DNA of 34,293 nucleotides, taken from positions 1 through 34,293 of the forward strand of contig JWZX01003121.1 of the NCBI GenBank assembly GCA_001275005.1, given 5' to 3'. The position numbers and the translations under genes were made by a program. The notes beneath the pieces were generated by a model. It was not told the DNA's origin. It ran no database searches and saw nothing but the letters and a program-made list of their open reading frames with translations. Below, one piece after another: positions 512 through 5,418 of this stretch (position 1 is its first letter; each line of letters begins with the position of its first letter). Source of the stretch: Chrysochromulina tobinii (Eukaryota; Haptophyta; Prymnesiales; Chrysochromulinaceae).

Positions 512-757
512 TTACTTCCCGCGCTTGGCGAGGTACTCGGCGAACGACTCGGCCTTGTGGATGGCCTGCTGCTTGCCCTTCGGGTCGTTCGGGTCGACGT
601 ACGTGGGCGCCGGGTCGCGGGTAGCCTCACCACCGCCGAAGCCCTTGCCGCCCATGGCGATCTTGGACTGCGCCAGCTTGGGGGCGAAGGCGGGGCCAGT
701 GAAGGCCTGAGCGAGCGCGAGCACGGCGGCAAGGACGACGATGCGGAGGTACAGCAT
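512..757 (-). CDS. Small plastid-targeted protein of unknown function (81 aa)
   Basis: The ATG at 757 opens an 81-residue frame ending in TAA at 512. The first 18 residues form a clean signal peptide: a hydrophobic core rich in Leu, Val and Ala, then AQA. The next residues read FTGPAFAP. A Phe directly after the signal-peptide cut, followed by a short Ser/Thr/Pro/Ala-rich stretch, is the known bipartite plastid import signal of algae with red secondary plastids. The mature part is about 45-50 residues, Gly-rich at first (MGGKGFGGG), then a charged segment (DPNDPKGKQQ, AESFAEYLAKRGK). It has no membrane segment, so it may be soluble in the stroma or a small peripheral subunit of a plastid complex. 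I do not recognise a named family. The gene is intronless. Plastid location is inferred from the leader; function is unknown. Confidence 0.82.
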   Translation of the reverse strand: MLYLRIVVLAAVLALAQAFTGPAFAPKLAQSKIAMGGKGFGGGEATRDPAPTYVDPNDPKGKQQAIHKAESFAEYLAKRGK

Positions 758-1293: not shown

Positions 1294-1978
1294 TCACTTC
1301 TTGGTCTTCGCCTTCTGCGCCCTCTTGGCCGCCGCCCTCTTGGCCGCGCGGTTGGCTCCCGGCGGTGTGGCCATGCTTTCGTTGACCTCATCGGGGTCCT
1401 CTCCTGCCGCGATGCGGCGCGTCGACTCACGCATCGCCTCGAACTGCATCAGGAAGAGTCCGACCTCCGTCTCGGGCTGGCCGCTCGCGACGGCGAGCCG
1501 TTGGATGCGAGGGCCGGGCCTGGCGCCGCCTGACTTGAGGTCTTCAATCAGCATCTCGGGATTTGCCCGCTCGTCTTCTAGCATCACCTCGACGATTTTC
1601 TCGTGCTTCAGAAATTTCTGCTTGGTCTCCGCGAGCTGTGCGTCGGTGAGCGTCGGCATCCCCGGGATACCCTTGCCTCCCAGTTTGGCGAACGCAGAAG
1701 ACATTGTAAGGAAGTCCTCGAATGAGACCTCTCCGCTCGCAGCTCGCCGGTCGATTCCAGAGACGACCTCATCGGCACCGGTTGACACCGCCTTTGGTGC
1801 AGCCTCATCCCCTGCGGGGGTAGAGGTCCCAGCAACCTTTGCAAACTGATCAGCCGCCGACTTAAGGCCACCAAAGACGTCTCCAAACATCTTCGACGCG
1901 AGACTCTCCATCCGTGGGTCCTGGACCACGCGCCTTTTGCTGCTGGTGATAATGCTGCTGCTGCTGCTGCTGCTGATA

Positions 1979-2023
<45 letters not shown>

Positions 2024-2094
2024 CTGTACAGCGTGCGTGCTGACCAAGCCTGCACGGACAGCACGTACAACATGTTGAGCACGAGCTTTCGCAT
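1294..2094 (-). CDS. Stand-alone SRP54 M-domain-like protein with plastid-type leader (266 aa)
   Basis: I chose the ATG at 2094 because it opens a signal peptide (MRKLVLNMLYVLSVQA) followed by WSARTLY; the frame stays open upstream to 2160, but that extension is charged. A low-complexity serine tract follows, encoded by a CAG/CTG microsatellite. The body, from about residue 75, matches the SRP54/Ffh methionine-rich M domain: an SGEVSFEDFLTM helix (compare the sGkFtleDf pattern), a GIPGMP loop in the finger-loop position, and near residue 205 the RNA-binding helix-turn-helix, PGPRIQRLAVASG followed by the QFEAM helix. The N and G GTPase domains are absent, so this is not an intact SRP54. The tail is Lys/Ala-rich. 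In the family the M domain binds signal peptides and SRP RNA; here it may act as a plastid-targeting accessory factor or RNA binder. Family match is good; role and plastid location are inferred. Confidence 0.78.
1938..2026. repeat. CTG/CAG trinucleotide microsatellite inside a CDS
   Basis: Pure CTG/CAG runs are interrupted by two gataat hexamers. On the minus strand, in the frame of the M-domain gene, the repeat encodes two serine blocks separated by Ile-Ile; another minus frame would give polyglutamine. It sits between the signal peptide and the conserved domain, so length changes would alter only the leader/linker. Confidence 0.9.
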
Positions 2095-2446: not shown

Positions 2447-5029
2447 TCAGAAAGCGTCAGAGAAGCGGCCGCCACGATAGCCGCCGCCACCGCTGCCGCC
2501 GCCGCCACCGCTGCCGCCGCCGCCGCCGCTGCCGCCGCCGCGCTCCCCGCCGTACCGCCCGCTGCCGCCGCCACCACGGTCTCCATGATCGTTGTACCGT
2601 GCACCCCCGCCACCGCCGCCGCGGGAGCCATACGGTGAGCCGCCGCCACGATCGCCGCCGCGATCGTTGTAGCTGCTGCGGTACCCGCCGCCGCCACCAC
2701 GGAACCCGCCGCCGCCGCCGCCGCGACCGCCGCGACCGCCACGACCGACGCCACGACCGACGCCACGACCGCCTGGGCCGAAGGGCCGGTCCTTGCGCAG
2801 TGGCGGCAGATCGAGGCACTCAGAGAGCGTCAGAGGTCCCAAAGTCTTCGAGGCTGTCGAAGCGGTGACCATGTCTATGGCCATCTCGACTGGCAAGTCG
2901 AACACGAGCTGCGAGCGAGGAGCACGATACAGCGACGGTCAGCAGCACGCAGCGCGAGCAACATCGCAGCAGGCCTGGCGTGATGGTACCCGCAGCGGCC
3001 CCGGCCCTCCAAGGCCGCAGCAAGGGAGGCGCAGCCATTGGCGAAGCACGCAAGTGTTGTGCGCCGCATCGACGTCCGCAGGTGCCACGGCGGTGAAGGG
3101 CACGACTGCGGTGCTTTTTATGCGGCGGAGGCTAGGGTAGCCGAGGGCGCAGTGCATCCGAAGAGGGGGGCAGTGCGTTCGCGAGGCACGTACCTGGCTT
3201 GCGTCTTCGCACGCACGGATCTTACCAACGTGATCGGCAGCGCGCTCACCACTCGAAGTCTTCCCGAGACGATTGATGGCCGCCATGGCGTCGCCGGCGG
3301 TGAGCATGCTGCCATCACTTGCCTCGAGGAGCAAGGTCGTCTGCCCCTCCTCGCCCGTAAGCAGTGAGCGCTGCGTGAGCGTCACCTTGCCTGCAACGAG
3401 CGCGAGCGCCTGCGCCACGTGGGCGACCACGTCGTCACCCGCAAGCAGCTCGGCTGCCGCTGCCGTGAAGTACTTTTGAACCTTGGGCTCAACGGCCTTG
3501 AGCCGGCGTGGCACGAGCTGCGCGGCCGCCGCCATCACCGTTGACGTCGAGGGCGGTCCGGACTTGACGAAGCGCACGTTGGCGCGCCGCTCGAGATTGG
3601 TGACCTCGCGCTCTTCTCGCTCCGAGTAAAGGAGTAGCGACGTACCGGTACGGCCTGCGCGGCCTGTCCGGCCCGAGCGGTGCACGTACGAATCGGGGTC
3701 CTGTGGCAAGCGATACTGAACCACGAGGTCGATGCCCTGGATGTCGATGCCACGCGCTGCCACGTCCGTCGCCACGAGCACGTTGAAGTGACCCTCACGG
3801 AATCTCCGCAGCGTCAGATCGCGCTGAGCCTGTGAAAAGTCGCCGTGGAGAGCCTGCGGCGAGAGGGCGGAGAGGGCCGAGGAGGCGCACAGCTCGTCGA
3901 CTTCGCGCTTGGTCGAGGTGAACACGATCGTCTTCGCATTCTCCGTTCCGTACACGGCGATCACATCCGCGAGGGTCGAGCAGCGTGCCGTCTCGGCAGC
4001 GGGCGTGAGCACAGCGCGGTGGTCTACCGATGTGGCCGCCTCCGATTGGCCCTTGCCCACGGCGTCGATCTCGATCGGGTCAGTCTGATGCTGGCGCGAT
4101 ACGTCGCGCACCCATGGCGGATGCGTTGCCGAGAAGAGGACCGTCTGCCTGTCCTGCGCAGAGGCCGCCTCGAGGATCTGTTCCACGTCCTCCTTGAAAC
4201 CCATGTTGAGCATCTCGTCCGCCTCGTCGAGCACCACGTGGCGCAGGTTGTCGAGCAGCAGCCCGCCGTTGTTCAGATGGTCGATGATGCGCCCTGGCGT
4301 ACCCACGAGCACGTCGATGCCGTTGCGCAGTGCACGCTCCTGCGGCGGATATGGGGTGCCACCCGTGAAAGTGTGAACTTCCATGCGGTGCGGCCGGCCG
4401 AGCATTTGGATGACCTCGCCAACCTGCTTGGCGAGCTCGCGCGTCGGCACGAGCACGAGCATGCGCGGCGCCCGACCACGTTCGGGCCGCTCGCGGCGCT
4501 GCTCTTCGGCCAGCCGCTGCACGAGTGGGAGCGCGAAGGCAAGAGTCTTGCCTGTACCCGTGCGCGAGCGCCCAAGCATGTCATGCCCCGCACGCAGCAT
4601 GTCGTACGACTGGGCCTGGATGGGCGTAAAGTGAGTGATGCCCTTCTCGGCGAGCATGGTGACCGTGGTCTCGTCCACGTTAAACATCGCGATCGGCGGA
4701 CGGTCAGGATCGTCCGGATCCGGCGTGGGTGCGGCATTCGGGTCGTCGTCATCCAGGGCCCACAGCTTCTCTGAGTCGCCGGCTATGCCGCCGTCGTCGT
4801 CGAGCGCTAACGATGCGAGCACGTCCGCAGCCTCGACCTCCTCATCTCCAGGAATCGAAATGTATTCATCATCAAACGGCGTGGATTTACCGTCGACACG
4901 CTCGGCTGCGACGCACTGCACTGCGGTGCGCTGGTGATGCGCCGCGCGGCAGGTGAATGGTGTTGGAACCAGCGAGGTCGGCAACCAGGAAGCCGTAGTC
5001 AAGGCTAGGGCAAACATCGCTCCCGTCAT
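2447..5029 (-). CDS. Plastid RH3-type DEAD-box RNA helicase with GUCT domain (two exons, ~765 aa)
   Basis: Spliced gene: exon 1 at 5029-3194, exon 2 at 2908-2447. The DEAD-box core is complete: Q motif (FTPIQAQ), motif I SRTGTGKT near residue 154, PTRELAKQV, TPGRI, DEAD near 265, SAT, IVFTST, ATDVAARGIDI and HRSGRTGRAG near 450. After a linker comes a GUCT domain, ending VGKIRACEDAS on exon 1 and resuming LVFDLPVEMA on exon 2; this matches chloroplast RH3 and bacterial DbpA-like relatives. The last 100 residues are Gly/Arg-rich (RGG-like), an RNA-binding tail typical of this group. The ATG at 5029 opens a hydrophobic leader (MFALALTTASWLP) suited to secondary-plastid import; an upstream in-frame ATG exists at 5107. 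RH3 acts in plastid ribosome assembly and intron splicing; that role is inferred from family. It is divergent from the FHA gene. Confidence 0.88.
2909..3193 (-). other. Spliceosomal intron (285 bp, phase 0) in the helicase gene
   Basis: On the minus strand the donor reads CAG|GTACGTG (intron from 3193) and the acceptor CTCGCTCGCAG|CTC (intron ends at 2909). Splicing restores the conserved GUCT segment that links the VGKI strand to the VFDLP helix. Reading through instead gives about 85 residues with no family resemblance and loses the RGG tail, so the intron is well supported by domain continuity. Confidence 0.85.
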
Positions 5030-5418
5030 ATGACGTGAAGCGGTGAAGGCCTCGGGGCAAAAACCGTTTCCTCGAAGTTCACATATGAGATGCAATCTCA
5101 ACCTCATCTCAGAGATTCACGTCCCGGTCCACAGTGTCTACTTGGTCTGGTCTTTGTGCGCGACAAACCGTGCTACGGCACATACAATTGTATGTGCATT
5201 GCCGAACTGAACTTGCTTCGTGCCCACTCGTGTGCGCACGTTCGGTCGTTCGCACCCAAACATGCCCAAGCTCTTACCTGTAGGTGAGATGGGGCGTGCT
5301 CGCATCGCGAACCGTTCCTCTTAACGGAGCCGTTCACGACAACACGTCGGTTGCCACTTCACGGTTCACGCCGACTTTGACTTGACTTCACGCCGCATCG
5401 CGCTCTCATTTCGCATAA
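5030..5418. promoter_or_regulatory. Divergent intergenic region between helicase and FHA genes
   Basis: These 389 bases separate the two start codons (5029 minus, 5419 plus) and must hold both 5' UTRs and promoters. A 20-bp perfect palindrome, gcacatacaattgtatgtgc, lies at 5178-5197, near the middle, and is a candidate binding site for a dimeric factor. No canonical TATA box is obvious. Confidence 0.5.

Follow-up and report, generated by a model that had tools for sequence, protein, structure and literature searches.

The M domain of SRP54 (SRP, signal recognition particle) is found without the N and G domains (NG) of that GTPase in mL105. This M-only protein sits where the tunnel of the mitoribosome opens, with its C-terminal helix inside the tunnel (Tobiasson and Amunts 2020, PMC7326499). 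The MAP67 family was named by Pyrih et al. (2021, PMC8321541), where a duplicated Ffh losing N and G is proposed as its source; according to that paper, MAP67 is essential in two apicomplexans and occurs "in more than one version" in some taxa. For the chloroplast protein of Arabidopsis, cpSRP54, a tail with an ARRKR motif is reported to contact the ribosome and cpSRP43 and is called land-plant-specific; ribosome contacts were mapped to the tail and the M domain, though co-translational sorting in vivo did not require the tail (PMC11427828). Here, we describe a gene at positions 1294-2094 (minus strand) of a 34,293-nucleotide stretch of DNA from the haptophyte Chrysochromulina tobinii (contig JWZX01003121.1 of assembly GCA_001275005.1, referred to in full as the window). 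The gene encodes the M domain of SRP54 without the GTPase, and we refer to its product and relatives as family A.

An M domain of SRP54 encoded without its GTPase

The open reading frame (ORF) and the parts of its product are as follows (aa, amino acids):

1294-2094, minus strand: whole ORF of the M-only SRP54-type protein, 266 aa plus stop; an intron-free reading suffices
2047-2094, minus strand: signal-peptide-like leader, residues 1-16, then W17 (VQA/W), by site motif
1938-2026, minus strand: poly-serine tract, a TGC triplet array in plus-strand reading; a repeat, not a family feature
1831-1902, minus strand: conserved N-terminal helix (SLAxKMFG...), residues 65-88, by alignment; a low-confidence stretch of the predicted structure
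1426-1725, minus strand: SRP54/Ffh M domain (SRP_SPB), residues 124-223, by profile match and fold
1645-1680, minus strand: shortened finger loop, approximately residues 139-150, by alignment and hydrophobicity comparison
1480-1512, minus strand: remodelled RNA-contact motif PRIQRLAVASG, residues 195-205, by alignment
1369-1473, minus strand: helix M5 with the conserved extension RIAAGEDPDEV, residues 208-242, by alignment and structure model
1297-1353, minus strand: basic C-terminal tail NRAAKR...KTKK, residues 248-266, by tail pattern

An earlier note, prepared without database searches, had read this ORF as an SRP54 M domain lacking its GTPase, and both the profile check and the structural overlay that it proposed bear this out. 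PF02978 (SRP_SPB) matches the 266-aa protein over residues 124-223 with an E-value of 2.7e-8 and 34.5 bits (gathering cut-off 27), while the NCBIfam model ffh aligns solely via positions 317-426 of its 428, the M-domain end. Searches of the ORF with Pfam and NCBIfam revealed no N or G domain, and whole-genome searches with PF00448, PF02881, TIGR00959 and TIGR00064 gave no N/G match on this contig (C1962). The predicted structure overlays the Ffh M domain; the top nine Foldseek matches are all SRP54/Ffh (best E 7.1e-3, none at E <= 0.001). Since SRP_SPB also matches 39/39 aligned family A members, we conclude from these profile matches that the M-domain assignment is not due to chance. The note had held that an upstream exon with an NG domain would overturn its reading. 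The start ATG is the first past an in-frame stop located 28 codons upstream, and the RGG-rich ORF that we read as the last exon of the neighbouring helicase gene ends ca. 350 bp before it; an upstream NG exon therefore does not fit.

Two other parts of the protein were considered. The poly-serine tract, to which the earlier note drew attention, is present, but as a triplet repeat that, in the alignment of 39 family A members, is restricted to close relatives such as P0003 and P0006; it was ruled out as a functional element. One relative, P0002, is identical over residues 55-266 and differs in the leader around this tract, so that the leader is variable between close strains. Profile scoring rejected the conserved N-terminal helix as a remnant of Ffh helix N1: with a profile from 42 Ffh N-termini, the 39 segments scored -19.7 on average versus -24.3 (sd 6.0) for shuffled segments, and 23% of all windows in family A proteins score no lower than the segments.

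Conservation, leader and remodelled M domain

A search of ca. 5.8 billion proteins at E <= 0.01 returned 105 relatives of the M-only protein, and SRP_SPB is the sole precomputed domain in 99 of them. Because the length limit of this search excludes full-length SRP54, the number of relatives is by itself no proof of free M domains. Their existence is shown by transcripts marked complete (P0074, P0085 and P0093) and by long contigs from Emiliania huxleyi (P0083, 610 kb) and Chrysophaeum taylorii (P0098, 298 kb). The earlier note had suggested looking for the same architecture in related algae, and it is found there: the named carriers are the haptophytes E. huxleyi, Chrysotila carterae and an entry cut at "Calcidis", the pelagophytes C. 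taylorii and Pelagophyceae sp. CCMP2097, and the dictyochophyte Florenciella parvula. Such lists cover named entries only, most other family A matches being without an organism name. A divergent-alignment search scored 7995 candidates and found 247, the best 120 of which are listed; no diatom is named among the listed matches of family A or of family B, a second group introduced below. Automatic database names exist for such proteins, e.g., "SRP54 subunit M-domain domain-containing protein".

Aligning 39 selected members revealed many positions without variation, including R227, I228, A229 and G231-P234 behind helix M5, and the invariant positions extend outside the Pfam domain. From this alignment, we conclude that family A is a conserved family and not a gene fragment. 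Viral carriage was considered and rejected: 125 stretches of viral contigs fit one of two peptide patterns in a single scan, and none encodes a relative.

The plastid-type leader proposed earlier was upheld as well. The 266-aa protein begins with a hydrophobic leader and has the site VQA/W, of the kind seen in ASAFAP-type signals of complex plastids. The site was then sought in 62 family A proteins (39 aligned members and P0138-P0160), 52 of which were kept by the set length and strength of their hydrophobic leader. A small-x-small motif followed by F, W or Y beside the hydrophobic segment was present in 35 of these 52 leaders; in 2000 rounds of shuffling, the average was 9.8 and the highest count 19. 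This enrichment agrees with the plastid signal of ASAFAP type that PMC5462543 names. The 266-aa protein is thus probably plastidial, with import inferred from its leader. Acidic depletion, used as a transit-peptide test (16/36 leaders with one acidic residue at most), was crude and is superseded by the site test. Unlike other haptophyte leaders, those of family A proteins P0093 and P0095 are long and in two parts, with AAAF or SAAY at the second hydrophobic stretch; one guess at their source is a dinoflagellate carrying a haptophyte-type plastid.

The C. tobinii genome encodes a second M-only protein. Above the cut-off, PF02978 has three matches in the assembly (53 Mb in 2253 contigs, possibly incomplete): the gene described here, a cytosolic SRP54 with N and G domains (C1924), and a 260-aa protein with a hydrophobic start, an M domain and an NRKQRR tail (C2183; L002 1321-2103, minus strand). 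The last represents family B, in which SRP_SPB is found in 31/31 relatives among the matches listed, Prymnesium parvum being named; Coccolithus braarudii P0165 clusters with it in the tree described below. Profile-profile comparison of A and B gave 99.9% probability (E 5e-33, 153 columns).

RNA-contact residues and linkers were counted in 28 family A and 19 family B rows, with the contacts presumably corresponding to S397, R398, R401 and G405 in E. coli numbering (motif SRxxRIAxGSG). R398 is kept in 27/28 A and 19/19 B, and R401 in 28/28 A and 15/19 B, but S397 is replaced by P in 28/28 A, and G405 is lost in 27/28 A and 19/19 B. The helix-turn-helix region that the earlier note had recognized is therefore present, with its contacts to SRP RNA kept only in part. 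At positions that are hydrophobic in Ffh, the hydrophobic share is 1.00 in helix M1 of both families, 0.83 (A) and 0.96 (B) in M2-M3, 0.61 and 0.73 in M5, and 0.49 and 0.53 in the finger loop. Both Met residues at the M5 end are absent from A and B, and the Met fraction of the M core is 0.060 in either family, versus 0.090 in 13 Ffh and 0.116 in three tail-bearing SRP54s. The losses of S397 and G405 and the changed M5 and finger loop make ordinary binding of SRP RNA, which the earlier note had entertained, and of signal peptides doubtful for A and B.

The basic tail links family A to full-length proteins. The pattern [NS]R..[RK][RK] occurs within the last 60 residues of 99/106 A and 27/31 B proteins, and of 0/69 Ffh longer than 350 aa. 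It is also present in three proteins with G domain matches, P0170 (531 aa), P0171 (485 aa) and the partial P0169 (271 aa), whose C-termini read NRAQRR and then Lys and GFG; they are a biased sample, as they were retrieved by a tail-containing profile. These proteins are most similar to P0175-P0179 (P0171, 57.9% to P0176, named Pseudanabaena), and we conclude from these similarities that cyanobacterial-type SRP54 can carry the tail. The alignment of P0171 with the A and B proteins of C. tobinii runs from the M domain through the tail. The median M3-M4 linker is 9 residues in 13 Ffh, 14 in the three tail-bearing SRP54s, 19 in 28 A and 21 in 19 B.

An M-domain tree was built from 65 chosen rows (28 A, 19 B, three tail-bearing SRP54s, two cyanobacterial and 11 other bacterial sequences, and the cytosolic SRP54 and a MAP67-like protein of C. 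tobinii); P0195, P0214 and P0232 are omitted, as the cutting motif was not found in them. In this tree, the groups are supported (71/99 for A, 98/96 for B, 95/82 for the tail-bearing together with the cyanobacterial sequences), but A and B are left unplaced; the cytosolic SRP54 and MAP67-like rows form long branches.

SRP factors in the genome and the surroundings of the gene

The MAP67-like protein (C1717; L015 1192-2010, plus strand) has 272 aa, with a start that resembles a presequence and an M domain of weak score (ffh 19.9 bits; SRP_SPB 21.3 bits, under the cut-off). Among PDB entries, it best matches 6z1p_AT (E 4.4e-5), which is the Tetrahymena mitoribosome's M-domain protein; by this similarity, it is a candidate MAP67/mL105.

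The earlier note had called for a search for an intact plastid SRP54, and none was found: queries with PF00448, PF02881, TIGR00959, TIGR00064 and P0171 detected neither plastid SRP54 nor FtsY in the 53-Mb, possibly incomplete assembly. Strong N/G matches were confined to the cytosolic SRP54 and an SR-alpha-like protein (C779). PsbO was found, as were three matches to 60KD_IMP (Alb3/Oxa1-type), possibly including mitochondrial ones. At the level of the whole group, haptophytes are reported to possess CpSRP54 and CpFTSY (PMC10269134).

Two plastid contigs, C2186 (67.8 kb) and C1598 (33.4 kb), carry photosystem II genes, have a GC content of 0.33-0.42 in pieces and have rRNA genes at both ends; judged by these features, the plastid genome looks nearly whole. 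An Rfam scan of both contigs at E up to 5, run without a plastid SRP RNA as positive control, revealed no SRP RNA, and detected tmRNA, IsrR and tRNAs. A whole-genome search with RF00169 gave no match in the 52 of 4734 candidates that were scored. The SRP RNA gene ffs is reported in diatom plastids and as lacking in Heterosigma (PMC2410131, PMC2873285). The IsrR match on C2186 (L043 2401-2587, minus strand) is strong, 160 bits at a cut-off of 52; IsrR is a cyanobacterial antisense RNA of isiA, and an occurrence in an algal plastid is far from the host range named by Rfam.

The M-only gene is flanked in the window by the following ORFs:

512-757, minus strand: 81-aa ORF whose leader, AQAF/TGPAFAP, resembles a plastid signal
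2447-2905, minus strand: RGG-rich ORF, the upstream neighbour, read as the last exon of a DEAD-box helicase gene
2939-5107, minus strand: ORF of a DEAD-box helicase, matching GUCT weakly, upstream of the M-only gene

A Pfam search of the 81-aa ORF found no family. The helicase gene (2447-5107, minus strand) possibly has a plastid-like leader of its own (TASWLPTS); if this leader is real, the three genes would be consecutive and plastid-looking.

Proposed role and known systems

We propose, with about half of our confidence, that the product of this gene, an M-only relative of plastid SRP54, is encoded in the nucleus and imported into the plastid, where it would probably serve as a GTPase-independent stromal factor in thylakoid insertion. 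The proposal draws on the domain architecture and its conservation, the motif of the leader, the fold prediction, the common tail, and the changes in RNA motif and finger loop; plastid import, an origin through loss of NG, binding of ribosomes or chains, and function are inferred from these. Most likely, family A would have arisen from a copy of plastid SRP54 that lost the NG GTPase and retained the M fold and basic tail. Together with family B, it would act in the stroma without a GTPase, the M fold and tail docking either on plastid ribosomes or on hydrophobic chains, nascent or imported, which may be handed to the insertase of the thylakoid with no need for an FtsY cycle, by analogy with what is proposed for mL105/MAP67 on mitoribosomes. 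The earlier note's suggestion that a free M domain might hold nascent chains unaided is close to this reading. Weighing against this are the M-domain tree, in which neither family finds a place, and the altered RNA motif and groove, with which ordinary signal-peptide binding appears doubtful.

Several other explanations were weighed. It is unlikely, though worth keeping in mind, that A (and B) are fixed structural subunits of the plastid ribosome near the tunnel exit, out of targeting: the core groove helices keep their hydrophobic positions, A is found among the matches in part of the algae only, and the binding is a prediction. A and B might instead replace cpSRP43/cpSRP54 as post-translational carriers that bring imported light-harvesting chlorophyll proteins (LHCPs) to an Alb3-type insertase, of which there are three Alb3/Oxa1-type matches in the genome. 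The diatom LHCP route is called unknown, and independent of CpFTSY, in PMC10269134; since no diatom is named among the listed matches, such a carrier would not answer the diatom case, and with a remodelled groove and putative substrates we regard it as rather improbable. The earlier note had thought of a free M domain competing with the full protein. Such a regulator or decoy of plastid SRP54, contending for ribosomes, chains or SRP RNA, would agree with the CpSRP54 reported for haptophytes (PMC10269134) and with the tail-bearing full-length P0170 and P0171, but no partner is visible (neither plastid SRP54, FtsY nor SRP RNA was found in the assembly), the RNA motif is remodelled and conservation across classes is strong, so we assign it a low probability. 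That the M domain stands alone in a possibly incomplete assembly could point to a truncated gene, pseudogene or assembly artefact; with the in-frame stop and the gene ca. 350 bp upstream, positions outside the Pfam domain that are invariant in 39 aligned relatives, and relatives in complete-marked transcripts and long contigs, this is hardly credible.

A more far-reaching version holds that the plastid SRP GTPase, FtsY and SRP RNA were lost, and that A and B took over thylakoid targeting as a GTPase-free plastid SRP. No plastid SRP54 or FtsY was found in 53 Mb, while cytosolic SRP54, SR-alpha, Alb3/Oxa1-type proteins and PsbO are present, and no SRP RNA was found on the nearly whole-looking plastid contigs. 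These absences are a hint only that this alga has lost plastid SRP: they rest on a possibly incomplete nuclear assembly, and PMC10269134 credits haptophytes with CpSRP54 and CpFTSY. We therefore consider this version improbable.

If plastid-leader M-only proteins with a plastid SRP54 tail are what we propose, the same evolutionary route would have been taken in a second organelle, and A and B would be candidates for the delivery of thylakoid membrane proteins without the usual GTPase cycle in haptophyte and pelagophyte plastids. The organisms named for family A are haptophytes, pelagophytes and one dictyochophyte, and a link between the plastid proteomes of these groups has been suggested (PMC5462543). 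In the open-access literature, we found no description of a plastid or haptophyte M-only protein, with the limit that the supplementary table of PMC8321541 may list A or B.

Compared with cpSRP54 and Ffh, family A has the same M domain by sequence and predicted fold, and its tail is common with P0169-P0171, but the NG GTPase is absent and the RNA motif, finger loop and Met fraction are altered. The tail stands behind the M domain as in Arabidopsis cpSRP54, a likeness by position; the Arabidopsis tail is described as land-plant-specific. With MAP67/mL105, a precedent absent from the earlier note, the 266-aa protein shares an M domain without NG. It differs in that, judged by the leader motif, the family A leader is plastid-type and not a mitochondrial presequence, in its cpSRP54-like basic tail, and in that the genome has the separate MAP67-like protein, which matches 6z1p_AT, whereas the sequence matches of the A and B profiles at E 0.1 do not include that entry. 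Free M-domain proteins are known from mitochondria as MAP67/mL105, and family A looks like their plastid counterpart.
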